The notes under the pieces: generated by a model
Seen by the model: only the letters and a program-made list of their open reading frames with translations
The model's database searches: none
Told to the model about the DNA's origin: nothing
Shown here: in pieces, positions 3,828-16,765 of the stretch
How positions within the stretch are numbered: the first letter of the stretch is position 1
Layout: each line of letters opens with the position of its first letter
Source: a virus
Virus record (IMG/VR): IMGVR_UViG_3300013005_000210
Coordinates: 1-20,605 of that record
Reading direction: 5' to 3' (one strand)
Length of the DNA stretch: 20,605 nucleotides
Translations under genes and position numbers: made by a program

Positions 3828-5048
3828 TTATATCTTATACCGGGCTCTATAAGTGCTAAAATTCTGTAGAATCTCTGAGGTTGTCAGAGCTCTATTGTAC
3901 GTTTTAACTACTGGTATTTTTCCGTTAAAGAAGTAATTGTCCGGATCCCCTCCTACTCTGAGGGCTGAGCTTATAGTGACTCTGGAAGCGTGAGTGGTTC
4001 CGCTTAACGGGTATGTAATTTCTTTGTCTCCGTCCACCCAAATATCGTAGCTGCTTCCATTCCAGTTAAACAGTACGTGGTGGTACCCTACTGGACGGGC
4101 AGTTTGTGTAGAGGTCGCACCTCCTCCGTTCCAGATATGTATTGCTTCATTACTAAATCCACCTGTCCATGCTCCTAGGTGGACTCCGTTACTAGTTCCG
4201 TTCCATGAAATAGGAGTCTGGTAGGTTGAAGGTCCTCCAATAGCGGTGTCGTTCCCGGGAATAGCGTTGTTGTTGTACAGCACCATCTCCAGGCAATACA
4301 TCTCCCCGCTACAGGCTGCTGTAATCGAATCGTTTGTGCCGTCAAACTCCATATTACCGGGTGAAACAAATGAAGCATTCGAAACGTCGAAAGTAAAACT
4401 GTTCTTTACATCCAATAAACTTCTAGTTGCTGTTCTTTCACCGTTTACAAAGGCTGTACTGTATGCCCTGTATTCAACTCTTGGGTTTTTCATGTAAAGG
4501 GTACCGCTTGATGCCATGCGGGGTCCGCAGCCTCCCGGGTAGACTAGCATTCTAAGGGTGCCGGCTCCGCCTGTTGGACCGGAAGTAAAAGTGAGGGTGC
4601 GCCAAACACCTACCTCCGAGTTTACATTAGTAGATCCTCCTAAGGCGTTTTCAAAAACAAGTAGAGTTGAGTTTTCCGGAAAGCCTGTAGCATCAGGAGT
4701 TACGTAGTAATCCATCGTGAAGGTTGCATAGGTTCCACCGGGTATTGCTAGGTCATTGCCGTGGTAGTGACATCCATTCGATCCTAGAGTGTACTTGTAG
4801 ACTACGTCCCCGGGCTGTGTGAGGTAGTCCCCTATCATCTGCCCCCAACCCAGTCTCACAAACGTACCGTTTCCGTTTACTTCAAATCCAACGTTGTTGT
4901 CTGAGGCTGGGCCTGGTCCGGCTGTACCCGGGAGTGCGAACTTGTTGATGGTTGGTTGACCTCTAAAGCTGTTGATAGTATCTGCGGTATCATACCCGAG
5001 TATGAGTCCGTCGGTGACTGTTTTGCTGAAGCCTGCTGCTATTGCCAT
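3828..5048 (-). CDS. LamG-fold adhesin, long architecture (406 residues)
   Basis: The N-terminal signature GLILGYDTADTINSFRGQPT lies at residues 14-33. It is followed by a beta-rich middle domain (about 45-195) with carbohydrate-binding-module-like strands ending TLYMKNPRVEYRAYSTAF. The LamG domain is at about 215-400 and opens with NMEFDGTNDSITAA. It closes with the family tail YNRALTTSEILQNFSTYRAR. LamG/concanavalin domains usually bind glycans, and in phage tails they commonly act as receptor-binding or decoration domains. The product is probably displayed on the virion and binds the host surface. It is the last gene of the LamG array. Its ATG lies only 3 bases after a TATTTATA box, which itself starts 1 base after the stop of the preceding gene. 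Confidence 0.8.
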   Translation of the reverse strand: MAIAAGFSKTVTDGLILGYDTADTINSFRGQPTINKFALPGTAGPGPASDNNVGFEVNGNGTFVRLGWGQMIGDYLTQPGDVVYKYTLGSNGCHYHGNDLAIPGGTYATFTMDYYVTPDATGFPENSTLLVFENALGGSTNVNSEVGVWRTLTFTSGPTGGAGTLRMLVYPGGCGPRMASSGTLYMKNPRVEYRAYSTAFVNGERTATRSLLDVKNSFTFDVSNASFVSPGNMEFDGTNDSITAACSGEMYCLEMVLYNNNAIPGNDTAIGGPSTYQTPISWNGTSNGVHLGAWTGGFSNEAIHIWNGGGATSTQTARPVGYHHVLFNWNGSSYDIWVDGDKEITYPLSGTTHASRVTISSALRVGGDPDNYFFNGKIPVVKTYNRALTTSEILQNFSTYRARYKI

Positions 5049-5051
5049 AAC

Positions 5052-5059
5052 TATAAATA
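5052..5059 (-). promoter_or_regulatory. TATTTATA box 3 bases before an ATG
   Basis: The 12-base gap between two LamG genes reads ATATTTATAGTT on the coding strand, followed by ATG. The box nearly fills the gap. If it were a promoter like the others, the transcript would be leaderless or start inside the gene. This site therefore argues for caution about the promoter reading. Confidence 0.4.
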
Positions 5060-5060
5060 T

Positions 5061-6188
5061 TTAGAGACCGTAACGTCCTTTGATTGCGTTGAAGTTTTGC
5101 TGGATTTCTGAGGCTGGTAGTGCTCTGTTATAAACTTTAGCTACTGGTACTTTACCGTTAAAGTAGTAGTAATTGTATTGGTAGTCCCATCTTCCTAATA
5201 CTATTGGTCTGTTTGTAAATTTTACAGTTTTAGTTAAAACAAAAGTAGAATCTAAGGCACCATTAACATATAGTTTAACTGTATTTGAAGGCTGGTCGAA
5301 GGTCATTACAAGATGAAAAGGAGTCCCTATAGTAGCGGCATATGTTGTATATTTGGAATCATATTCTCTAGTATTGTCTGTGTATCCTATAGATATTCCT
5401 ATTCTATTACTACTTATATGGTTAAGTCCAAAATTACTTGTATTAGCATAATCGTGATTTGAGATTATACCTGCTGGGGATTGTGGTCCTCCGGAGATTG
5501 TTGTTATAACTTCAAATGTCTGAGATCCGTTTAGTGTTATATTTTCAGAAGTCAGTATGTGGTCATCCGTACCATCAAAAGTTATTTGAGCATTTGCATC
5601 AAATGATACATTTGTTAGATCGATGGTTGATCTGCCGGTTAAGTCTTTGAGGCCTTGGGTGACGGAACGGGTTCCGGCGGTGAACTGGGTTGGATGTGTT
5701 TTTTCTTCAATCTGTGGGGCGGCGATATCGATCGTACCTAGTTGATTGTACCGGTATACTGTAACCTGAGAGATTGTACCGGTCATATCACTCCTACTAT
5801 AAGAGTACTTATTCCAGTCTTGAGTAAGAGGTCCGTCACCAAAATACCACCACCCACCGTCAGGACCGGTTCCTGTGTATACATACATTAGGTAGGTACT
5901 AGAGGTAGCAGATCTAGATCGCATCCACACTGAGTAGGTAAAGGTTTTACCTGTAGCTGCAGTATTTGTAGTATTTCTAGGGTTTACAAAATAGCCACTG
6001 CTATATTGAGCAAACCCGATAACGTTAGTTTGAGGGGGGATATCAGACGTGATAACATTAGCATTACCGTCTGGTGAAATTACAAGATTAACCGTCGGCT
6101 CTCCTAAATACGAACGCTTGATATTCGCTAGATCATAAGCAAACACCAGTCCGGTATTATCTACGTACGGGGATATTCTACTTGCCAT
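5061..6188 (-). CDS. LamG-fold adhesin, long architecture (375 residues)
   Basis: The N-terminal signature GLVFAYDLANIKRSYLGEPT spans residues 13-32. A middle beta domain (about 55-165) contains TFTYSVWMRSRSATSSTY, the carbohydrate-binding-module-like pattern. The linker QFTAGTRSVTQGLKDLTG joins it to a LamG domain (about 198-372) that begins AQITFDGTDDH and contains the strand VKLYVNGALDSTFVL. The tail is VPVAKVYNRALPASEIQQNF. It is clearly a paralogue of the 395-residue protein encoded at 6930-8117: both share the RSxTQGLKDLTG linker and the SYLGEPTVNL signature, and the DNA of those stretches is similar. Its ATG overlaps the TAA of the preceding gene by one base (TAATG), so translation is probably coupled. 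A role as a glycan-binding tail adhesin is inferred. Confidence 0.8.
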   Translation of the reverse strand: MASRISPYVDNTGLVFAYDLANIKRSYLGEPTVNLVISPDGNANVITSDIPPQTNVIGFAQYSSGYFVNPRNTTNTAATGKTFTYSVWMRSRSATSSTYLMYVYTGTGPDGGWWYFGDGPLTQDWNKYSYSRSDMTGTISQVTVYRYNQLGTIDIAAPQIEEKTHPTQFTAGTRSVTQGLKDLTGRSTIDLTNVSFDANAQITFDGTDDHILTSENITLNGSQTFEVITTISGGPQSPAGIISNHDYANTSNFGLNHISSNRIGISIGYTDNTREYDSKYTTYAATIGTPFHLVMTFDQPSNTVKLYVNGALDSTFVLTKTVKFTNRPIVLGRWDYQYNYYYFNGKVPVAKVYNRALPASEIQQNFNAIKGRYGL

Positions 6189-6928
6189 TACTTACCGAAT
6201 CTAGATTTAGTCATGTTGTAGTTCTGTAGAATTTCTGAGGCTGTGAGTACTCGGTTGTATAGTTTAATACTAGCTCGTCTTCCGTAATGTTTCCATCCGT
6301 ACAGGCTTCCGAATACTATTCCTCCTCCATCATACACAGCGGTTCCGGCAGTGTTAGGAGTACTTGCAGCACCCATGTAAATTCCGTCCATATAAAGTCC
6401 TACCTGACTAGCTCCTCTGTTCCAGATCATTGTACGAGCTCTCCAGGTGTTAGTCTGGTTAATAACTCCTGTTGAAATGTACACATCGTCTTCGTAGGAT
6501 CCTCCTGAGTTACTGCTCATACCAAATCTTACAGAATTTAAACCATTGCCATGGTTCCAATCAAATCCAGTAGCGCCTCCTCCGTAAGCTATATCACTGG
6601 CTACACTACCTCCGTCTGCTTCCGGATAATCTACAGAATTAGTCCAGATAATTTCTTCAATAGTCCATCCGCCCGTGGTTGTAGTAAGTGCAGAATTTAA
6701 GCTAGTACTATGTGGAATACTAATTGTAAAAAAGTTAGATACGTTTCCAGAATTTCTTAAGTATCTTTGACTGGTAACAAATTCTCCATTGCTTATAGTT
6801 CCGTTATTACCGTTCCCGCTCACATCATACCAGGTAGCTCCAGATCCCGGATAAGATCTCACATTACCGGCATCCAGGGATAGTACCAGTCCTTCTCTTA
6901 TAATATTCGGTCCTCTTCTAATTCCCAT
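6188..6928 (-). CDS. LamG-fold adhesin, short architecture (246 residues)
   Basis: The short form has no middle domain. The signature GLVLSLDAGNVRSYPGSGAT at residues 13-32 runs straight into WYDVSGNGNNGTISNG, the first LamG strands. The domain fills the rest of the protein and contains VGLYMDGIYMGAAS near residue 178. It ends with the family tail KLYNRVLTASEILQNYNMTK. This is the simplest complete example of the fold in the window and a useful reference for the nested 560-residue protein. The start is preceded by TAAG from the upstream gene's stop, a one-base gap. A chance AGGA within the preceding Gly codon and stop could act as a weak ribosome-binding site. The predicted role is host-surface glycan binding. 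Confidence 0.8.
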   Translation of the reverse strand: MGIRRGPNIIREGLVLSLDAGNVRSYPGSGATWYDVSGNGNNGTISNGEFVTSQRYLRNSGNVSNFFTISIPHSTSLNSALTTTTGGWTIEEIIWTNSVDYPEADGGSVASDIAYGGGATGFDWNHGNGLNSVRFGMSSNSGGSYEDDVYISTGVINQTNTWRARTMIWNRGASQVGLYMDGIYMGAASTPNTAGTAVYDGGGIVFGSLYGWKHYGRRASIKLYNRVLTASEILQNYNMTKSRFGK

Positions 6929-6929
6929 C

Positions 6930-8117
6930 TTATCCTATGTTAAAACGTGATTTAATCGCGTTATAGTTTCTTGCCACTTCGTCGGCTGTTAATGCTCGGT
7001 TGAAAATCTTTACAGACGGTACCTGGCAGGGTAGGTAAGAGTATACCGATTCGCCACCGCCGTCTACCTGAGCTTTGCTGATTCCGATATTGCCAGCGGA
7101 TGGGGTCAGGCTAGGATTATACTCCTGAGTGGCGGTAGTAGCTGATCCATTCAAAGTACCGTTTGCATAAAGTTTTATAGTTCCTCCAGAGTAATCATTT
7201 ACCAGTACTAAATGATGGTAGCGACCTGGTGTTAGATTAAACCCTGCAGTATTTCTATAAGCATCTGCTCCCCTGATATAGCCGTAGATTGTACATGCTG
7301 TACCGGAACTATTTCCGTACCAGTATAGAGCGGTTCCGCTGTAGTATGTAGCTCCTACTAAAACCCCAGCTCTAGTAGTGTTGTTGTAAAAGTTAGGAGG
7401 TGCAGCTGTAGGATATGCGTCAATCTTTACCGTACATTCAATAGTGAAGTTTGAAAGAGCCGGTAGGGTAGTCAAGGGGATTCCGGTATCAAGAGTATCG
7501 TCAGTTCCATCAAAAGTCATTTGAGCATTTGAGTCAAATGATACAGTAGATAGGTCGATTGTCTTATTTCCTGTCAAGTCTTTTAATCCCTGGGTTGCTG
7601 ATCGGGTTCCGGCTACAAAGGGGGTAACGTGTGATTTGTATTCAACCTGCGGATTATATAAAGTTACAGCTCCTCCGGAATCAAAATTAATATCCAGAAA
7701 ATAGTAAGGTCCGTCGTACGTACCCCGGGTACCGTATCCACCTAGCCTCCCTGATACGTTAGTTGAATAGTTTAAACCTGTTATGCCGGTATCACACCAG
7801 TCTATGCCTATACCACCTACTAAATTTTCGTAGTATACACTGCATGCATATGTTGCTCCGTTTATTAAATCCCCCTGGTTGGTATAAACTCTGACAGTAC
7901 TAACTCCTGTTCCGTTATTTACAAACCTGTACTTTCCGTTGCCTAGATCAGTTCTAGTACATCTACCGTATATGTCAGTAGCTCCGTCTATAAGGTTATA
8001 AGCGCCGGCACTGTATAGCAAATTAACCGTCGGCTCTCCCAGATACGAACGTACAGTATTACCGGTATCGTAATGAAATACCAGACCGTCGGCAGATGTT
8101 TTAGGAGAGAAGAACAT
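6930..8117 (-). CDS. LamG-fold adhesin, long architecture (395 residues)
   Basis: The signature GLVFHYDTGNTVRSYLGEPT is at residues 11-30. A middle beta domain follows to about residue 155 and ends NPQVEYKSHVTPFVAGTRSA. The linker TQGLKDLTGNKTIDLSTVSF leads to a LamG domain starting AQMTFDGTDDTLDTGI, with TIKLYANGTLNGSATTAT as the typical ligand-face strand. The tail is KIFNRALTADEVARNYNAIK. It is closest to the 375-residue paralogue: signature, linker and the phrase SFDxNAQxTFDGTDD are shared. It begins 15 bases after the 706-residue gene, and the upstream sequence TTATAATAGCAAACT has no Shine-Dalgarno sequence. It is probably displayed on the tail or fibre and binds host glycans. Confidence 0.8.
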   Translation of the reverse strand: MFFSPKTSADGLVFHYDTGNTVRSYLGEPTVNLLYSAGAYNLIDGATDIYGRCTRTDLGNGKYRFVNNGTGVSTVRVYTNQGDLINGATYACSVYYENLVGGIGIDWCDTGITGLNYSTNVSGRLGGYGTRGTYDGPYYFLDINFDSGGAVTLYNPQVEYKSHVTPFVAGTRSATQGLKDLTGNKTIDLSTVSFDSNAQMTFDGTDDTLDTGIPLTTLPALSNFTIECTVKIDAYPTAAPPNFYNNTTRAGVLVGATYYSGTALYWYGNSSGTACTIYGYIRGADAYRNTAGFNLTPGRYHHLVLVNDYSGGTIKLYANGTLNGSATTATQEYNPSLTPSAGNIGISKAQVDGGGESVYSYLPCQVPSVKIFNRALTADEVARNYNAIKSRFNIG

Positions 8118-10254: not shown

Positions 10255-10386
10255 TTATAGGCTGGCTAAAAATTCTTCGGCTTGTTCCCGGGTCGGGAAA
10301 GCTCCTATAGGATTTCCATTACGTACATAAGCAACTAAAAAGATAGTAGCTTGTCCGGTTCCTAATTCAAAAATTTCAGGTGTCAT
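10255..10386 (-). CDS. Small protein, 43 residues, nested between two adhesin genes
   Basis: The frame runs from ATG at 10386 to TAA at 10255-10257. The product begins MTPEIFELGTGQATIFLVAY and ends with TREQAEEFLASL. Its start overlaps the TGA of the 560-residue gene as ATGA, and its stop is one base from the ATG of the 706-residue gene. It thus exactly fills the space between two coding regions with the tightest possible coupling. The composition is typical of a folded small alpha/beta protein: a strand with IFLVAYVRNGNPIGAF, then a helix REQAEEFLASL. It has no signal peptide, cysteine or membrane segment. I do not recognise a family. A role as adhesin chaperone or attachment factor is possible but unsupported. 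Confidence 0.75.
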   Translation of the reverse strand: MTPEIFELGTGQATIFLVAYVRNGNPIGAFPTREQAEEFLASL

Positions 10387-12065
10387 AGTCCAAATCTTGT
10401 TTTAATCAAAGAATAATTTCTTGCAACTTCGGTAGCAGATAAAGCTCTATTATAAACTCTAAATATAGCAAAAGCACCTCTGTACAGGGATCCTCCTCCA
10501 CTATATGTTCCTAATGCGTATCCGTTAGATCCTCTACCCATGCCACTATTGTGGAAATTATAATTAGAAGTTCCTGAGTTGTATGCTCCGTTTATGTAGG
10601 TTTTAAGATCTCCGGTAGTGTTATCCGTAACAGTATTTTTAAATACCCATGTAAAAATATTCCAAGTATCATTACTCCAATACCCCATACCGCCGGGGTA
10701 AGCCCCGCTAGGACTATCGGGGAAGTAGTGAGATCCCATACAGGAACCGTGGCAGTAGAACATTGGGCCGTAGTTACCATTAGCGCCCATTGATAAAACA
10801 CCGTAAGAGCCGCCCTGGTCTAAGCCATTATGGTAGAACATTAACTCTAATGTAAAATCTGACCATCCCCCTGTTAGTGTTGTATTACCAATCCAGTCAC
10901 TTGTTCCATCTAAGTTTACACTCGGTACTCCTTTAATAGTTTCAAAAGTACATCCTCCGTATAAAGTTGCATGGTGTCCATTTCCTGAGGTATCGTACCA
11001 GACTGTGTCTTGAGTTGAACCATAAGGGGTAAAAGTACCGCTAGAGGTAAAGGTATGAAACGATACTCCATTAGAAAAAGAATAAGTTCCTCCTGTAGCT
11101 GCTTGAGGTCCGTTGTAACGAACAATTACAATTCCTGAACCCCCTTCTCCTCCTTTGTTGTTGGCGTTGTAGTGAGATCCTCCTCCGCCTCCACCTCCGG
11201 TATTAGCTCCTGCGTTACCTCCTGGCTGTTGATTACCTAATCCGCCATTGCTGCCGGCATTCCTGCCGTTAGTATCTCCAAACCCTACAGTGTTTCCGTT
11301 TCCACCAGCTGCTCCGCCTCCTCCTCCTCCGAGCCCGCCGTCGCCGCCCTTGGTTCCGGAGTAGCAAGAACCGCCTCCACCGCCGCTGTAGTAGTAAGGA
11401 CTCATTCTTGATATAAGAATCCCAGGACCTCCGTGGCCGGCGTTACCGCTAGGAGCAACGTGACCTGGTCCACTAGTACCTCTTCCTCCGGCTCCTCCGC
11501 CGCCTCCTGACCAATGGTCGTCGGCACCTGTAGTCGGATTACCGGAGTTCCCGCCCGGATATCCCTGACCTACAATATTGTTTGTATCAACGTACCGCTC
11601 TCCTCCGTGAGTGTATGCTGAACATCCTCCTCCGGATGCTCCTGAACCTCCTATACCTGAATTTGGAGTGTATCCGTAGTATGAGCTTGCTCCAAATCCT
11701 CCTCCTTTTGCAGTTAAGTTTCCAAATACTGAATCGGATCCGTTGGTTGCTGAGATAGTGAATTGGTGACTGTTCGGTTGCGGACCTGCTCCATCGGTTC
11801 TGTAACCGCCATTGCCTGCTGGTGCTCCGAAGCCTCCAGCTCCTACAGTGACTGTGATGCCTACACCCGGGGTGACTTTGTAGTTAGGGTCGTAAAGCAC
11901 TCCGCCGCCGCCTCCACCACCGCCCATATCCATACCACCGCCTCCGCCTCCGCCAACGACCATAACTTCAACTGATCTTACGGTCCGGGCTGATGTTAGG
12001 TCAGCAGCATCGAGATTCAGAATAAGCCCATCTCTTTGTATCTGTGGATTGCTTGAAAACGCCAT
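10383..12065 (-). CDS. LamG-fold adhesin interrupted by a glycine-rich receptor-binding-type domain (560 residues)
   Basis: The first LamG strand, DGLILNLDAADLTS, is at residues 12-25. A glycine-rich domain then occupies about 29-349. It begins VEVMVVGGGGGGG and contains repeated GGGG runs, and ends with the usual closing strands SGIVIVRYNGPQAATGG and FHTFTSSGTFTP. The LamG fold resumes at TVWYDTSGNGHHATLYGG (about 354) and ends with RVYNRALSATEVARNYSLIK. Compared with the 246-residue paralogue, the whole glycine-rich domain sits between strand one and the WYD segment. Glycine-rich domains of this kind occur in phage tail adhesins, and those of T4-type gp38 adhesins form polyglycine-helix bundles that bind receptors. 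The gene is preceded by A-rich sequence (AAAGAAAAAAGA) and a TATTTATA box 11 bases from the ATG, and probably heads the LamG transcript. Confidence 0.8.
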   Translation of the reverse strand: MAFSSNPQIQRDGLILNLDAADLTSARTVRSVEVMVVGGGGGGGMDMGGGGGGGGVLYDPNYKVTPGVGITVTVGAGGFGAPAGNGGYRTDGAGPQPNSHQFTISATNGSDSVFGNLTAKGGGFGASSYYGYTPNSGIGGSGASGGGCSAYTHGGERYVDTNNIVGQGYPGGNSGNPTTGADDHWSGGGGGAGGRGTSGPGHVAPSGNAGHGGPGILISRMSPYYYSGGGGGSCYSGTKGGDGGLGGGGGGAAGGNGNTVGFGDTNGRNAGSNGGLGNQQPGGNAGANTGGGGGGGSHYNANNKGGEGGSGIVIVRYNGPQAATGGTYSFSNGVSFHTFTSSGTFTPYGSTQDTVWYDTSGNGHHATLYGGCTFETIKGVPSVNLDGTSDWIGNTTLTGGWSDFTLELMFYHNGLDQGGSYGVLSMGANGNYGPMFYCHGSCMGSHYFPDSPSGAYPGGMGYWSNDTWNIFTWVFKNTVTDNTTGDLKTYINGAYNSGTSNYNFHNSGMGRGSNGYALGTYSGGGSLYRGAFAIFRVYNRALSATEVARNYSLIKTRFGL

Positions 12066-12102: not shown

Positions 12103-13350
12103 TTAGAGTTTTCCTAGCATGTAATCCTGAGCTTGCTTGGTTTTATCGCAAGTATTCTTCATTAATTCGATAGTCTCAGGGTCAATAAGCTGTGGGTGAA
12201 CCCACCAATCCTCGTAACTACTATTCTTATCTACCGAAATGTTAGTTACTAAAAGTTCGTATCCTTTCTCTTGCAGATACTTTCTAGACTTGTCTCTATA
12301 GGTTTTTGTAGAGTCGTAGTAGTAATCATGCTCATAGGTAATTACTGCAAATCGATACTCATCAAACGGTATAGCTTCTAGGATAGCGTAGGTATTGTAC
12401 TCCGGGTCGCAGTCAAGCTGTAGGAAATCAATATCCTTTCCTAGATCTATCTTGCGTAGGAAGTCTCTATAGTCGGTGGCTACTGCATCCTGGCAGTATA
12501 CCGGGTTTTTCCTAGCAGCTTTAAACTTATCAGTCACTGCCTGATCAATATCAATTGATGCTCCTTTCCATCCGTAGGATTCTTCCAGAAGAGCGGTATT
12601 GTTGTTGTGGTGAGGATCTCCTGATCCAATCTCCAGGTAGGTTCCGTTCTTTTTACCTTTCAGTGCTGCTAGCACAAACATATCCTGGTAGGCTTGTGCA
12701 AAATTCTTTTCAATCTTTTCAGATCCTGGGAATTTATATTTAAGTTCCGGGTGCTGTTCTTTAGTATACGGGGTGATTGGGAATAACTCTCCTTTGAGTT
12801 TAATGATATTATCTCTAGTAACATTTGCGAATAAGTCACTCATGTAGTAACTGTCCATGATCCAGCGCAGCATACCTCTTGATTCATCGCATTTACCAAT
12901 CCACCAAGCCGAAACTGCTTTTTGGAAATAGAGAGCGTACTCTGCCGGGTACTCTACATCGGTTACTAGTGAACGATACTCATGCTTGATAAACTGCAGA
13001 CCGGTACAGGCGGTTGTATAGCATTCCTGCCATTTTTGCTCACGTTCGTAGTACCGGCTGAGGAGGAAGTAACCTTCCGGACGGTCCGGACGAACGGAAA
13101 TAGCATGCAGAAGTTGTCCGGTGGCAGAATGCTTACGTTCTTTTTGCTTATTAATGTTTAAGAAGTTACGAAGCAGGCATTCATACTGCAGATCTTTATC
13201 GGTTGTAGTTTCAGCAACTCGTAAGTAAAAGGATAGAGCGGCAGCAATCTGACCTCTTATGTCGTATTCGTACCCGATAAGAAAATTTACACCTGGATCT
13301 CCTGGAGATTGTATAAATGTCTCAATCGCTTTTTGTAAATTACTGTCCAT
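12103..13350 (-). CDS. TPR-like N-terminus fused to FkbM-type SAM-dependent methyltransferase
   Basis: Residues 1-200 form helical repeats of TPR type: NFLIGYEYDIRGQIAAALSF, then HAISVRPDRPEGYFLLSRYY, and QKAVSAWWIGKCDESRGML. From about 218 an FkbM methyltransferase begins with FAQAYQDMFVLAAL. Its SAM-binding motif I is TYLEIGSGDP at 237-246, followed by GASIDID (acidic loop) near 263-269. The later motif DFLQLDCDP lies at 308-316 and FAVITYEHD at 334-342, matching the family's DFLxIDxEG and ItxEhD features. FkbM enzymes O-methylate sugars or secondary metabolites. The substrate here is unknown; a glycan is plausible given the two genes upstream. Its start overlaps the end of the propeller gene by 11 bases. 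Fusion of TPR repeats to FkbM is seen in surface-glycan loci and some marine phages. Confidence 0.8.
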   Translation of the reverse strand: MDSNLQKAIETFIQSPGDPGVNFLIGYEYDIRGQIAAALSFYLRVAETTTDKDLQYECLLRNFLNINKQKERKHSATGQLLHAISVRPDRPEGYFLLSRYYEREQKWQECYTTACTGLQFIKHEYRSLVTDVEYPAEYALYFQKAVSAWWIGKCDESRGMLRWIMDSYYMSDLFANVTRDNIIKLKGELFPITPYTKEQHPELKYKFPGSEKIEKNFAQAYQDMFVLAALKGKKNGTYLEIGSGDPHHNNNTALLEESYGWKGASIDIDQAVTDKFKAARKNPVYCQDAVATDYRDFLRKIDLGKDIDFLQLDCDPEYNTYAILEAIPFDEYRFAVITYEHDYYYDSTKTYRDKSRKYLQEKGYELLVTNISVDKNSSYEDWWVHPQLIDPETIELMKNTCDKTKQAQDYMLGKL

Positions 13351-14326
13351 CTATAAAATCTTGTATAACTTTCTTAGGAGTTTTTAAAATATACGCAGTA
13401 TTATCCTGAAATCCAAAAGTAATGAGGATATCTCCCTGGTATTCTGCAATCCCGCAGGTAAATTCTACGTGACCGGTCAAGTATTTAAACTCTTTTGATA
13501 TCTTAACAAGATTCCAGTCTTTATCCCAAACCAAGAACCGGTGGTAGTAGTGACAGTCTTTATTACCTACTTCGTTATACCACATATCTACTTCGTGGGT
13601 AACAGTGATGTAACCGCCTTCCCAAGGAATGACCTGAGAACCTCCTCTAAAATCTCGGTAACCTTGTAGGTAGTTTTGACTCTGATGGATAATCTTGCTT
13701 GATTTTGTTGCAAGATCTACTTCTACTACTTCGGTAGGATTGCTCCATTTTACAAACCTAAAAGGCTGGTCAATGATCGGCATCCAGTTCTTCTCGCAGT
13801 ATGAATTCGGATCACTAGGAGGTTCGATTCGGGTACGGGACAGTTCCTTTACTCCGTCCTCGTATTCTACTACTTCGCTAAATTCCATTCTACCCTCTCC
13901 GTTGGTCTTGGTATCTCTTCGAACACCAATTAGGTAGAGTTTATTATCCCATCTTACTACTCTAGCATCTTCTAGCCCGATAAAATCCCAGACCGGGGTT
14001 ACATCCAGTCGGGAGGTGTCTACTTTACTGCCCTTAACAAGGTTGAGCTCTTGATCTAAAATGCATAGATAGTTGATCGTACGTAGCTTTAAGTCGTCTT
14101 CAGGATGCATGTAAGTCATGGGTCCCCAACGGCTATGAAACTCTTTACGGCCTTCGTTATGGTAGAGGTTGTACTGTACGTGACGTAGGTTCACTAGAAT
14201 CCTATCTCCATCAATGTAGACTGAGGGGTTGCATAGTCCTGTTCCTTCGGTGTACTCGGCCGGTACAAGCAGAGGGCGGATTATTCCTCCTGCTTCAATA
14301 ACCCTTTTTACAAAATTAATTTCCAT
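13340..14326 (-). CDS. GH130-like five-bladed beta-propeller glycosidase/phosphorylase-type protein
   Basis: The 328-residue protein shows propeller blades of the GH43/GH130 type. Residues 31-49 (CNPSVYIDGDRILVNLRHV) match the opening NPS-W/Y blade. FIGLEDARVVRWDNKLYLIG at 115-134 corresponds to the GxEDPR core motif of GH130, with Ala in place of Pro. CEKNWMPI (177-184), FRGGSQVIPWEGGYITVTHE (226-245) and HVEFTCGIAEYQGDILITFG (286-305) are the later blades with conserved acids and His. GH130 enzymes phosphorolyse or hydrolyse mannosides; homologues in this size range are often annotated only as glycosidase-like, and activity is not certain. It has no signal peptide and so acts in the cytoplasm. 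It overlaps its upstream and downstream genes by 11 bases each, suggesting coupled translation and a shared substrate. Confidence 0.7.
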   Translation of the reverse strand: MEINFVKRVIEAGGIIRPLLVPAEYTEGTGLCNPSVYIDGDRILVNLRHVQYNLYHNEGRKEFHSRWGPMTYMHPEDDLKLRTINYLCILDQELNLVKGSKVDTSRLDVTPVWDFIGLEDARVVRWDNKLYLIGVRRDTKTNGEGRMEFSEVVEYEDGVKELSRTRIEPPSDPNSYCEKNWMPIIDQPFRFVKWSNPTEVVEVDLATKSSKIIHQSQNYLQGYRDFRGGSQVIPWEGGYITVTHEVDMWYNEVGNKDCHYYHRFLVWDKDWNLVKISKEFKYLTGHVEFTCGIAEYQGDILITFGFQDNTAYILKTPKKVIQDFIDGQ

Positions 14327-15221
14327 CTACTGCTTTAATAATATCAGCTATATTAAAAATCTCATCCGGACTTTCGTAAGGACATTGAATAGCTGCTCCG
14401 TCAAAAGAATAATCGAAAAGATACGAATTAATTAGCTTAGGAGCAAACTTAGGAGGGCTTGCTTGAATATTTGTATGTAGATCGTATCCAAATACTTTAG
14501 GAGATGTTCCTACCCACATCACGGTAGATGGTAGATTGAAAGCAGCTGCAGCGTGCTGTAAGCATGAATCTATAAGGATTCTTTTTTCTGAAGCTGCTAG
14601 AACTGTCAACAGTTCAAAGTTTGATAGAGGCTGGTAGATTGCTTCTGCACCCGGAATAGCTTCTCTTTCACTCCTACAGATCTGAATTACATGGTAGTCT
14701 TTGGAGTAGTGCTGTACCAGTAGGTTTGAGATAGCTGGCGGAATATCTCTAGTCCAGCTATAAACCTGCTGATCTTCTAAGGGACCTCCTCCGGTTTGAA
14801 TCACTATTACTGGTTTCTCTCGTCTCCAGGCATTGGCAAATCTCTTCTGTACCAGGTTCAGAAAAAGCACCGGCTTTTGTTCGGTATATTCTAGTCCTAG
14901 AAGTTCACACCAGCTTTTGATAATATGCTGCTCTTTCTGGATGTGTCCATTCTGGAAGTATCCTTCATGGCGGAATACTAATGTATCTTTATCTTCGATA
15001 TAATTCTGATAGAAGTACGGAGTGTTGCCTACCGGGTATACTCTCTCTACTTCCGGGAAATTCAAGAAGATTTCCGGGTAAGAAACCACCAAAATAATCT
15101 TACGGTCGGGATATGTCTGTTTAATGGAGGAAAGCAGCGATGTAGCTGCTATGTTTTTACCCAGTCCGCCTTCAATGTGCCAGACCAGGTACTTATCCTT
15201 CCCTTGATAACCTGCTTTCAT
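14316..15221 (-). CDS. GT9-like (heptosyltransferase-type, GT-B) glycosyltransferase
   Basis: The protein has 301 residues. The N-terminal half begins YLVWHIEGGLGKNIAATSLL (11-30), the Gly-rich turn and helix that start GT-B folds of the ADP-heptose:LPS heptosyltransferase family. The C-terminal half has VIVIQTGGGP (138-147) at the start of the nucleotide-binding domain. The donor-site signature ILIDSCLQHAAAAFNLPSTV lies at about 215-234, followed by VGTSP, equivalent to the family's DSGxxHxAxAxxxPxxxxfGxTxP. In bacteria such enzymes add heptose or related sugars to LPS. Here the acceptor is unknown. There is no signal peptide. A 36-base gap with a stable hairpin separates it from the gene upstream, and it overlaps the propeller gene by 11 bases. 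Confidence 0.75.
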   Translation of the reverse strand: MKAGYQGKDKYLVWHIEGGLGKNIAATSLLSSIKQTYPDRKIILVVSYPEIFLNFPEVERVYPVGNTPYFYQNYIEDKDTLVFRHEGYFQNGHIQKEQHIIKSWCELLGLEYTEQKPVLFLNLVQKRFANAWRREKPVIVIQTGGGPLEDQQVYSWTRDIPPAISNLLVQHYSKDYHVIQICRSEREAIPGAEAIYQPLSNFELLTVLAASEKRILIDSCLQHAAAAFNLPSTVMWVGTSPKVFGYDLHTNIQASPPKFAPKLINSYLFDYSFDGAAIQCPYESPDEIFNIADIIKAVDGN

Positions 15222-15236
15222 ATTAAAACTATTTTA

Positions 15237-15252
15237 AGACAGCAAGCTGTCT
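15237..15252 (-). other. Hairpin with CUUG tetraloop in intergenic gap
   Basis: On the minus strand AGACAG and CTGTCT form a 6-bp stem closed by G-C on a CTTG loop, 5 bases after the stop of the 127-residue gene. CUUG loops are unusually stable. The sequence that follows is TAAAATAGTTTT, without a clean T-run, so this is either a weak terminator or an RNA stability/processing element before the glycosyltransferase gene. Confidence 0.55.
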
Positions 15253-15257
15253 ATTAC

Positions 15258-15641
15258 TTAAAGACTCCCTGAAGTAGATACTAGAGTCCAGTCACCTACT
15301 GCTAATCCAAACATATTAGGAACGTTCTCTAGGGTGTAGTTTAGGTGAGCGTAAACGTGCTTGGCGTACTGACCTGTCATTCCGGCCGGGTAAGTCAATG
15401 ACTCGTAGTAAGTGTTCCATTCGTCGACTGGAAGTACTAAACGAGTTTGGTTGATACCAAGCGGGTTTTGAGAGGTATAGTTAACAAAGACTATACCGTT
15501 AAGGGTAACGAAAGAGTCACCAGGCATGTTGTGGGTGGGGTCTACGTAGATAGTCTGGTTAGCAATTAATACTAACGAAGAAGTTGCCTGTGTTACGGCA
15601 TCGTAGATAACCGGACGATTTGAAAGTAGGTGGTAAGCCAT
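15258..15641 (-). CDS. Unknown beta-rich protein, 127 residues
   Basis: The product begins MAYHLLSNRPVIYDAVTQAT and is rich in beta-forming and aromatic residues, with ANQTIYVDPTHNMPGDSFVT at about 27-46 and EWNTYYESLTYPAGMTGQYA at about 74-93. It has no cysteine, signal peptide or membrane segment. Its composition (Thr, Asn, Tyr, Val and Leu) resembles that of small virion proteins more than enzymes, but I do not recognise it. It lies between the sulfotransferase and glycosyltransferase genes, 37 bases after the former, with a TATTTATA box 16 bases before its ATG. The start has TAATATGG and no Shine-Dalgarno sequence. A structural role is a guess from composition and location only. Confidence 0.75.
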   Translation of the reverse strand: MAYHLLSNRPVIYDAVTQATSSLVLIANQTIYVDPTHNMPGDSFVTLNGIVFVNYTSQNPLGINQTRLVLPVDEWNTYYESLTYPAGMTGQYAKHVYAHLNYTLENVPNMFGLAVGDWTLVSTSGSL

Positions 15642-15657
15642 ATTAGTGTTTATATCT

Positions 15658-15665
15658 TATAAATA
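15658..15665 (-). promoter_or_regulatory. TATTTATA box before the 127-residue gene
   Basis: The coding strand reads ATATTTATAAGATATAAAC in the 37-base gap, 16 bases from the ATG at 15641. It is the rightmost of the seven boxes and probably separates the sulfotransferase transcript from the glycosyltransferase transcript. Confidence 0.45.
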
Positions 15666-15678
15666 TAGTTAAACTCTC

Positions 15679-16500
15679 TTAGATTTTGTACTCGAAAGCA
15701 TCATAAAACCATTGGTAGTTATCGGTGATTAACTGACAGCCGGTTGGTCCTAAGATTTCCTTATAGTCTTCTTTCACCGGCTCTATTTTATTTTTAATTT
15801 TGTGATCTCCAAACACTCCCCATACCTTGTCATCTTCGTAGGTAAGCTGTTCTACGTTATTAAAGTCATGCTTGTAGTGTGGTAGCTCTAAGTACTCGTA
15901 GATTCTTTTTAGTTCACGGTCTGGGCTGGTTGTAAGGTCTTCAAACTTAATAAAAAGTACATTTTCGTGAGTACCTTCTAGCAGGGATTGGTAGATTCGG
16001 TCCATAACCGGTCCGATGGGTACTGTATTAGACCAGTGTACTATTCTCTTGTCGGTTGTAGTGCCTGTTAGATCTGCCCAGTTTAAGATTCCGTGTTCAA
16101 TCTGAGGATTTGCTCGGTATTTCTTTTCCATAGAAGCATAAACTGCTCTAGGATCTCTAATCATAGAGATAATCTTGGGATTTTCGTCAAAGAACTTGAG
16201 GAAGTTATATTCACCTGACCATCCTCTGCATTTATCCATTACGTATGGACGGTCGGTAATAGCTTCAAAGTATCCGTGAACCGCTCCTTTGCAGTAACCC
16301 TTCCAGGCTTTTTCCATAGTTTCAGCATCCTGGGCTTTAACTTCTGGACTGGTTGAGTAGATGGTTCGTGCGTTGTATAAGAAGTCAAATACTCCTGAGG
16401 TAGGAGTAACGTATAGGTCAGGGTTCTGTCCTAAAATGTTTTGAATGAGTGTAGATCCGGCTCGAGGCATCGAGCTATTGTACATAACTTTTTTTACCAT
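15679..16500 (-). CDS. PAPS-dependent sulfotransferase
   Basis: The protein has 273 residues. The 5'-phosphosulfate-binding loop is NSSMPRAGSTLIQNIL at residues 8-23, with Arg13, Ser16 and Thr17 in the positions that bind the sulfate and phosphate of PAPS. The 3'-phosphate-binding motif is IRDPRAVYASM at 114-124, with Arg115 and Ser123 as the conserved pair. FIKFEDLTTSPDRELKRIYE further on is the usual FxxYEDLxxxPxxxLxxI segment that closes the sulfotransferase fold. The length is normal for the family. It would move sulfate from PAPS to a hydroxyl or amino group on a glycan, lipid or protein tyrosine. No PAPS-making enzyme is present here, so the donor must come from the host or from elsewhere in the genome. 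It starts 4 bases after the 86-residue gene. Confidence 0.85.
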   Translation of the reverse strand: MVKKVMYNSSMPRAGSTLIQNILGQNPDLYVTPTSGVFDFLYNARTIYSTSPEVKAQDAETMEKAWKGYCKGAVHGYFEAITDRPYVMDKCRGWSGEYNFLKFFDENPKIISMIRDPRAVYASMEKKYRANPQIEHGILNWADLTGTTTDKRIVHWSNTVPIGPVMDRIYQSLLEGTHENVLFIKFEDLTTSPDRELKRIYEYLELPHYKHDFNNVEQLTYEDDKVWGVFGDHKIKNKIEPVKEDYKEILGPTGCQLITDNYQWFYDAFEYKI

Positions 16501-16504
16501 AATA

Positions 16505-16765
16505 TTATCCTATATAATCTTCTCCGGCTACAATAGCGTCGTTGAGGGTTGTGAACTGTTCGATAGTTAAGGCATTTGTAAACCATGTCTGAGACATAAG
16601 TCTCTTAAGGTGGCCTACATTACGAATAACGTAAGTTTTTCTTTCAAAAACATTTGAACTGCTTAATCTATCATCAGAGGGATCAATTACCCCTGTAACT
16701 AGCTTATTAAGCAGAGTCGCTACGCTTAGAGCATTGGTTATAGCAGTTGTGACTTGGTCTGACAT
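16505..16765 (-). CDS. Unknown small alpha-helical protein, 86 residues
   Basis: The product begins MSDQVTTAITNALSVATLLN and appears almost wholly helical. A polar region around residue 30 (DPSDDRLSSSNVFERK) separates two helices, and the second half contains NVGHLKRLMSQTWFTNALTI. It has no cysteine, signal peptide or membrane segment. It lies between the last S74 fibre gene (35-base gap) and the sulfotransferase gene (4-base gap), so it may be co-translated with the latter. I do not recognise a family. Small helical proteins beside fibres sometimes act as assembly factors, but nothing here demonstrates that. Upstream sequence is A/T-rich (TTAATTAAAAACAGATCGT) with no Shine-Dalgarno sequence. 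Confidence 0.75.
   Translation of the reverse strand: MSDQVTTAITNALSVATLLNKLVTGVIDPSDDRLSSSNVFERKTYVIRNVGHLKRLMSQTWFTNALTIEQFTTLNDAIVAGEDYIG

Follow-up and report, generated by a model that had tools for sequence, protein, structure and literature searches.

The window examined in this work was a stretch of 20,605 bases of viral DNA (IMG/VR record IMGVR_UViG_3300013005_000210, positions 1 to 20,605), and the analysis concerned a cassette of four putative glycan-enzyme genes located within its tail-fibre locus. The window matched the first 20.6 kb of the 173-kb IMG/VR record G001 at 99.98% and was taken to be a piece of a large T4-like tailed phage with a variable island of fibre genes resembling the "host recognition" clusters. 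Read along the minus strand, the locus contained S74 fibres, an open reading frame (ORF) of 86 amino acids (aa), the sulfotransferase, a 127-aa ORF, and the GT9-like, GH130-like and TPR-FkbM genes. Downstream of the last of these lay a glycine-rich/LamG-type adhesin, further adhesin-like ORFs, the tail sheath and the tail tube. The LamG type was assigned by Pfam for two adhesins, and the remaining adhesins and the tail tube were assigned by eye. The features of the locus were as follows:

15679..16500, minus strand: PAPS-type (3'-phosphoadenosine 5'-phosphosulfate) sulfotransferase, 273 aa; Pfam Sulfotransfer_3, Protein Data Bank (PDB) profile matches and invariant residues
15258..15641, minus strand: 127-aa ORF with no assigned family, between the sulfotransferase and GT9 genes; ORF call
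14316..15221, minus strand: GT9-fold (heptosyltransferase-like) glycosyltransferase, 301 aa; AlphaFold2 (AF2) model, fold comparison and alignments
13340..14326, minus strand: GH130-fold mannoside phosphorylase/transferase-like enzyme, 328 aa; AF2 model, fold comparison and alignments
12103..13350, minus strand: TPR domain (residues ~1-200) plus FkbM-type methyltransferase domain (~205-415), 415 aa; Pfam below cut-off, and family members
16505..16765, minus strand: 86-aa ORF, also found directly before the sulfotransferase in the relatives L164 and L165
16801..19907, minus strand: three S74 (chaperone-released) fibre genes adjoining the cassette, candidate acceptors; PF13884 at the corresponding places of G001
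10383..12065, minus strand: adhesin of glycine-rich and LamG type, flanking the cassette opposite the fibres, candidate acceptor; Pfam

The original prediction had placed the cassette between the S74 fibres and the LamG-type adhesins, and both this placement and the coordinates were confirmed, with the tail sheath lying beyond. The two 11-base overlaps (GT9/GH130 and GH130/TPR-FkbM) were exact in the sequence, and only the last three genes overlapped. The 127-aa ORF had not been listed before. It was separated by 37 and 36 bases from the sulfotransferase and GT9 genes, respectively, gave no Pfam, PHROG or NCBIfam match, and among the sequences fetched occurred only in copies of this phage. S74 (PF13884) gave four matches in G001, at fibre genes, and the adhesin at 10383..12065 matched Gly_rich_2 (1.2e-6) and Laminin_G_3 (8e-6, just under its cut-off). 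The Ser/Thr/Asn richness attributed to the adhesins was present but modest (83rd to 91st percentile of 111 phage proteins).

Comparison with related viral sequences showed that the four genes form two modules, namely GH130 with TPR-FkbM and the sulfotransferase with GT9. The linkage of the first pair was determined on viral contigs scanned with GH130 alone, from which the best 80 loci of at least 600 relatives, close relatives only, were taken; these fell into 55 clusters at 90% identity, loci found through FkbM being excluded. The TPR partner overlapped GH130 in 40 of the 80 loci, lay within 50 bases in 18, was fused in 16, lay 51-1500 bases away in 2 and farther in 3, and in one locus the contig ended 67 bases after GH130. 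By cluster the corresponding numbers were 33 (overlapping), 9 (up to 50 bases), 7 (fused), 2, 3 and 1, so that in 49 of the 54 testable clusters the partner was either fused to GH130, overlapping it or no more than 50 bases away. Overlaps of 4, 8 and 11 bases were recorded in 8, 9 and 5 of the 33 overlapping clusters, respectively. Such lengths are usual in the GH130/TPR family, and the 11-base overlaps were thus rejected as a special design. The sulfotransferase was found on the same strand and no more than 700 bases from GT9 in 25 of 27 loci (13 of 14 clusters).

The expectation that the genes would stay linked in relatives was therefore borne out for both pairs, and both maintained their linkage and active-site residues over wide divergence. 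The order of all four genes, proposed earlier as one set, was confined, across 188 sequences, to this phage and its near-identical copies, namely the window and three further records (L005/L085/L161, L086/L162 and L088/L163); another copy, L087, runs off its contig within GH130. A single conserved operon of four genes was rejected, as the pairs mostly travel separately outside these copies. Both modules were present in L080, where they were 5.9 kb apart with adhesin-like ORFs between them, and L145 carried GT9, the sulfotransferase and a GH130 fused to FkbM and radical SAM/SPASM, followed by a TPR protein. With the pairs widespread and the four-gene order seen in this phage alone, the two pairings appear to be old and the assembly of all four recent.

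The GH130-like protein of the window gave no match to the GH130 Pfam family, whereas 21 of the 44 aligned members matched it at E ≤1 (best 9.1e-5). A PDB sequence search with the phage-only GH130 profile yielded no GH130 match and two chance matches. The assignment was supported by the predicted fold, a propeller nearest to GH130 (AF2 model with a mean local confidence, pLDDT, of 85.9 and a predicted TM-score, pTM, of 0.88, with a poor stretch near residues 57-78). Foldseek placed beta-1,2-mannobiose phosphorylases and a mannoside synthase at the top. In the VIA-align comparison the 21 best PDB entries had Z scores of 20.9-24.2 over 266-282 aligned residues, a root-mean-square deviation of 3.0-4.2 and an identity of 10-16%, and the rows at Z ≤18.5 were mainly GH43, together with Leishmania MPTs (17.6-18.3). 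Seventeen of the 21 entries were GH130 mannoside enzymes, and the other four (3r67, 4onz, 3taw and 1vkd), labelled only as putative or predicted glycosidases, we take to be GH130 as well. The 17 were counted as such by entry name or by a statement in PMC4599007.

The residues N33, R48, E119, D120, K179 and D308 were invariant across the 44 aligned GH130-like members. E119-D120 and D308 aligned with E91-D92 and D281 of Teth514_1788 in weak HMMER alignments; D308 was also aligned in a second comparison, and N33 was matched by conservation and spacing only. In Teth514_1788 the mannose-site Asn is N28, the catalytic Asp D92 and the C-terminal Asp D281, according to the part of PMC4264767 consulted. 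The spacing of R48 and K179 equals that of Arg89 and Lys199 of BT3780, a mapping by spacing rather than by superposition, and Lys199 is described in the consulted part of PMC4599007 as the beta-1,2 determinant of that enzyme. By these alignments the phage enzyme appears to retain the residues that hold mannose.

The original prediction had this enzyme trim or rearrange a sugar. That role was not favoured, as the structural neighbours include the mannoside synthase Uhgb_MS (Z 21.6), and Leishmania MPT-2 was found at Z 18.3. A synthetic role would be the better guess, because a mannoside synthase and, lower, GDP-Man mannosyltransferases are among the matching folds and because mannose-6-phosphate-isomerase-type and nucleotidyltransferase domains adjoin some relatives. 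When the model was searched against BFVD, an uncultured phage protein ranked first, followed by pithovirus, solivirus, indivirus and satyrvirus proteins; some of these giant-virus matches were automatically named fucosyltransferase, LicD-type or pyruvyl transferase.

The opposite direction of the reaction was also considered, in which GH130 would be catabolic, a phosphorylase or hydrolase degrading a host mannan or storage glycan or trimming a glycan. Among characterised GH130 enzymes many degrade mannosides, phosphorylases predominate in the best structural matches, and the mannose-site residues are retained, with K179 at the spacing of Lys199 of BT3780. The coupling to TPR-FkbM, the fibre neighbours and the synthetic enzymes among the matches speak against degradation, which was judged improbable.

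The GT9-like protein was likewise assigned by its predicted fold (pLDDT 82.5, pTM 0.83), its Pfam match of 0.048 being below cut-off. The model had a GT-B fold nearest to heptosyltransferases, with Z scores of 18.4-21.5 for GT9-type PDB entries (GT9/WaaC/WaaF/TibC), including 21.5 for a Veillonella GT9, 19.2 for WaaC, 19.2 for WaaF and 18.9 for TibC. Three NDH-PSI chains followed at 16.2-17.1, and the other rows did not exceed 11.1. The catalytic Asp of WaaC, presumably D13, and of TibC was sought in the alignment of 20 GT9-like rows and was not encountered; Lys22 stood at its usual position in all 20. In TibC this residue is D110, and its replacement by alanine abolished or largely diminished activity (PMC4358343, consulted in part). 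The pairing of Lys22 with the Asp of a bacterial protein, taken as GT9 by eye, was seen in a local alignment only (E 0.0043, probability 8%). The loss of catalytic residues, which the original prediction had named as a point to be checked, thus applied in part to GT9. By its sequence, GT9 may have an altered mechanism or may no longer transfer a sugar.

The identity of the sulfotransferase was firm (Sulfotransfer_3, 5.2e-17, 63.3 bits against a cut-off of 27). Its PDB profile matches were headed by protein-tyrosine sulfotransferases, and P12, R13, G15, S16, R115 and S123 were invariant across 21 aligned rows. It carried a PRAGSTL loop and an R-x7-S motif, to which we assign their presumed roles in sulfotransferases. 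The TPR-FkbM protein of the window matched TPR_17 (0.0049) and Methyltransf_21 (0.022), both under cut-off. Across 30 members TPR_17 reached 7.4e-10 and FkbM 2.2e-4, and 8 of the 30 matched FkbM at E ≤1. The TPR part of the earlier assignment was therefore clear over the family and the FkbM part weaker; the motif region of the window protein was read as being of the FkbM type.

The position of GH130 relative to fibre genes was measured as the gene distance to the nearest collagen-like (at least 8 Gly-X-Y) or S74 gene in eight long records. These were eight of the 11 GH130-bearing records of at least 100 kb: G014, G015 and G016 were left out, and the sample likewise lacked the long records from which L087 and L116 come. 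The layout of G015 and G016 resembled that of G012, and locus L064 of G014 has a collagen-like ORF. Among the records used, G017 stemmed from a locus identified with FkbM. The distance was 1 in five records, and 4, 5 and 7 in G001, G012 and Synechococcus phage S-SCSM2R. The five records gave per-record p values of 0.017-0.022 and the other three 0.17-0.21, and the combined Fisher p of 3e-5 is optimistic, as the collagen criterion was picked after such ORFs had been seen near many loci. A collagen-like gene was the next gene in 22 of 85 clusters and within six genes in 38, counts that include loci found through FkbM, with many contigs short and no random control. When ten common neighbour families were compared with PHROGs, the matches were tail sheath/stabiliser (two), virion structural (one), head-tail adaptor (one), terminase (one), glucosyltransferase plus minor coat (one), NUDIX (one) and function-unassigned (one), and two had no match; six of the ten were thus virion, sheath, adaptor or terminase families or included a minor-coat match. 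Fibres with NTxxG repeats were considered as a specific partner of sulfotransferase-GT9 and rejected as a general one, being within six genes in 7 of 17 clusters.

Further enzymes accompanied the pairs in relatives. Radical SAM and SPASM domains were fused to GH130 or FkbM ORFs in L016, L048, L128 and L145; L033 carried a fused GT2, and L206 a fused mannose-6-phosphate-isomerase C-terminal domain. In L205 the gene that follows FkbM combined a domain of this last type with a cytidylyltransferase-like one. A 2-oxoglutarate-Fe(II) oxygenase adjoined sulfotransferase-GT9 in G004, G005 and W03 and was no farther than 1.3 kb from it in G003. In L080 the gene immediately following GT9 gave an APS (adenosine 5'-phosphosulfate) kinase match (134 aa, 4-94 of 152 positions), which would supply PAPS. 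The region L080:4045-5034, directly after sulfotransferase-GT9, holds this kinase-like gene together with two short ORFs that resemble each other, one of which was scanned and was cytidylyltransferase-like.

Among 50,697 isolate phage records GH130 matched three, two of them over most of its length, namely the Synechococcus phages DSL-LC02 and S-SCSM2R; in both a TPR-FkbM relative stood beside it with an 8-base overlap. TPR-FkbM matched four records, GT9 three and the sulfotransferase ten. In DSL-LC02 the pair had an annotated collagen-like protein gene on one side, and on the other a second FkbM gene followed by a tail fibre gene; the collagen-like and tail fibre genes run on the opposite strand. 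In Pelagibacter phage HTVC111P, a podophage, a fibre gene matching the window S74 fibre overlaps a GT9-like gene by one base (24562-27878, L293), so that fibre-glycosyltransferase linkage also occurs outside T4-like phages. Genome collections yielded 28 GH130 loci, nine of which (38-50% identity) had a TPR-FkbM relative adjoining; L200 and L202-L206 carried phage-type genes by eye, and L199 and L201 were short contigs. The other 19 were distant relatives (23-30% identity), and the two inspected, L209 and L219, lay among genes resembling exopolysaccharide genes. In L203-L206, from bins called Rhodobacteraceae and Bacteroidetes, GH130-FkbM was followed by a nucleotidyltransferase-like gene, scanned in L205, and by neck-type phage genes (by eye), and these are probably phage contigs in bacterial bins. 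The distant relatives L212, L213 and L220 (Betaproteobacteria bins) had an FkbM-profile match ~1 kb downstream.

From the gene content, predicted folds, residues, linkage and nearness to fibres we proposed that the cassette modifies the fibres or adhesins of the phage itself, in the cytosol, with a methylated and sulfated glycan, a proposal to which we give an even chance. The direction in which GH130 works, the sequence of the reactions, the acceptor and the use to the phage are as we infer them. GT9, or another phage glycosyltransferase, would place the first sugar. The GH130-type enzyme would then act synthetically, taking mannose-1-phosphate or GDP-mannose as donor and adding a beta-linked mannosyl unit. 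TPR-FkbM would O-methylate the sugar, its TPR part holding the enzyme or the substrate, and the sulfotransferase would sulfate the sugar from PAPS. The product would be a short glycan on fibres or adhesins, serving altered receptor binding or fibre protection. Neighbouring genes favour the virion over the host as the target, because the pair mostly stays with fibre and structural genes and because the enzymes that accompany it in relatives include types whose substrates are commonly proteins. Of the joint glycan-making set originally predicted, the real enzymes inside the fibre locus and their linkage stood, and the conserved foursome and the trimming did not.

Several observations weigh against this proposal. 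GH130 does not adjoin a collagen-like or S74 gene in three of the eight long genomes, G001 included, and the collagen criterion was chosen with such genes in view. In S-SCSM2R the pair is preceded by annotated ribonucleotide reductase, DNA ligase and baseplate wedge/tail pin genes, not by fibres. GT9 lacks the usual catalytic Asp, and its fold is as close to the lipopolysaccharide (LPS) enzymes WaaC and WaaF as to TibC. An APS kinase was found in one of 16 records, and PF13640 oxygenases in eight of the 16, G001 not among them. Flavobacterium phage immuto, the nearest sequenced isolate, gave no match to any of the four proteins, which points to a module dispensable in the wider group. The virion glycan itself is predicted from genes alone, and a fibre island fits remodelling of the host surface too.

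Such remodelling, in which the enzymes would alter the host surface glycan (O-chain or capsule) during infection and block co-infecting phages, is somewhat unlikely in our estimate. It is the published reading for glycosyltransferases of the pelagimyophage host recognition cluster in the part of PMC7029224 consulted. GT9 is the LPS heptosyltransferase family, the related sulfotransferase of S-SRM01 has annotated glycosyltransferase and nucleotide-sugar epimerase genes nearby, and G001 has a separate cluster of ~16 kb with GT1, GT2 and sugar epimerase genes. On the other side, none of the five proteins tested showed a transmembrane-like stretch by hydropathy (LPS-type transferases, too, can be cytosolic), the cassette genes are linked to structural and fibre genes, and a protein substrate would be more in keeping with the radical SAM/SPASM fusions and the neighbouring oxygenases of relatives. 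The cluster in G001 (92013-107703) is larger than the cassette, and six of its ten scanned proteins had matches (GT1, GT2 and epimerase types); it may be a source of sugar donors or make a host-directed glycan.

The genes could also be passing cargo of a variable island, with no joint function, which we consider quite improbable. L165 is closely related by its GT9 and S74 genes, and in it an oxygenase, a DUF6445 protein, two GT2 enzymes and a flavin oxidoreductase replace GH130-FkbM and the adhesins, so that this place is a swap site, and the four-gene order is not conserved; the two pairs, however, hold their linkage and active-site residues over wide divergence. That the genes serve to put sugar on modified bases of the phage DNA, or act on small metabolites, is very improbable, as the NUDIX hydrolase is the sole nucleotide-modification family among the ten common neighbour families and we know of no sulfotransferase or FkbM enzyme in DNA hypermodification. 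In its favour are reports of phage glycosyltransferases glucosylating DNA (PMC12619734, consulted in part) and the ribonucleotide reductase genes just before the pair in S-SCSM2R.

Elsewhere in the window, at 3828-8117, an array of LamG/ConA-like adhesin ORFs had an N-terminal segment in common, and two DNA stretches there were ~74% identical over 156 bases. At 53.7-57.1 kb, G001 encoded a DUF6445 protein, an RmlD-type reductase and a C-methyltransferase. The terminase of G001 was 74.5% identical to that of immuto, and no psbA match was found in G001, a possibly incomplete record. A cyanophage origin was not supported, and on both of these grounds the host is likely flavobacterium-like.

Glycosyltransferases in T4-like fibre islands are already known. 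The host recognition cluster of pelagimyophages and cyanomyophages, located between VrlC and gp14, is, like the present cassette, part of a variable structural-region island with fibres and glycan enzymes, and radical SAM cassettes are mentioned there; neither pair is named in the consulted part of that source, and the enzymes are read as acting on the host O-chain (PMC7029224). TibC, one of the structures closest to the phage GT9, shares its GT9-like fold. The phage enzyme differs in having Lys at the position of the catalytic Asp, and the two align only from about residue 85 on. TibC is a bacterial autotransporter heptosyltransferase that glycosylates a protein adhesin and forms an iron-finger dodecamer (PMC4358343, in the part consulted). 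The phage GH130 resembles Teth514_1788, Uhgb_MS (PMC4264767 and PMC4599007, both consulted in part) and Leishmania MPT in the propeller and in keeping the mannose-site Asn, the Glu-Asp and the Asp, and differs from them in its pairing with TPR-FkbM and in an activity that is predicted only. The giant-virus proteins share the GH130-like fold region (TM-score by query 0.65-0.76), often in longer polypeptides, and are themselves predicted structures with automatic names only. The enzymes of mycobacteriophage virion glycosylation reportedly differ from those of the cassette. Phage virion glycosylation is nevertheless established in mycobacteriophages, which carry sugars on their own capsid and tail tube subunits by experiment, whereas the cassette is a reading of genes (Freeman et al. 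2023, cited in PMC12619734, consulted in part). No paper naming the GH130-FkbM pair was found in word searches of an open-access library, which is weak evidence of absence.

A wider reading, tentative and on balance doubtful, would make GH130-TPR-FkbM an undescribed, widespread virus machine that beta-mannosylates and methyl-caps collagen-like and S74 fibres, with a GT9 module adding sulfation in the present phage. The GH130-like core would then be common to tailed phages and giant viruses, each using this enzyme family to coat their own fibres with sugar. If the proposed modification of the phage's own fibres is right, the fibres of many T4-like phages carry methylated, sometimes sulfated, sugars made by the phage, which would bear on host range and on the prediction of binding from fibre sequence alone, and GH130 enzymes would have a viral, synthetic role. 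As the GH130-FkbM pair is present in two cultured Synechococcus phages, it is open to testing now.

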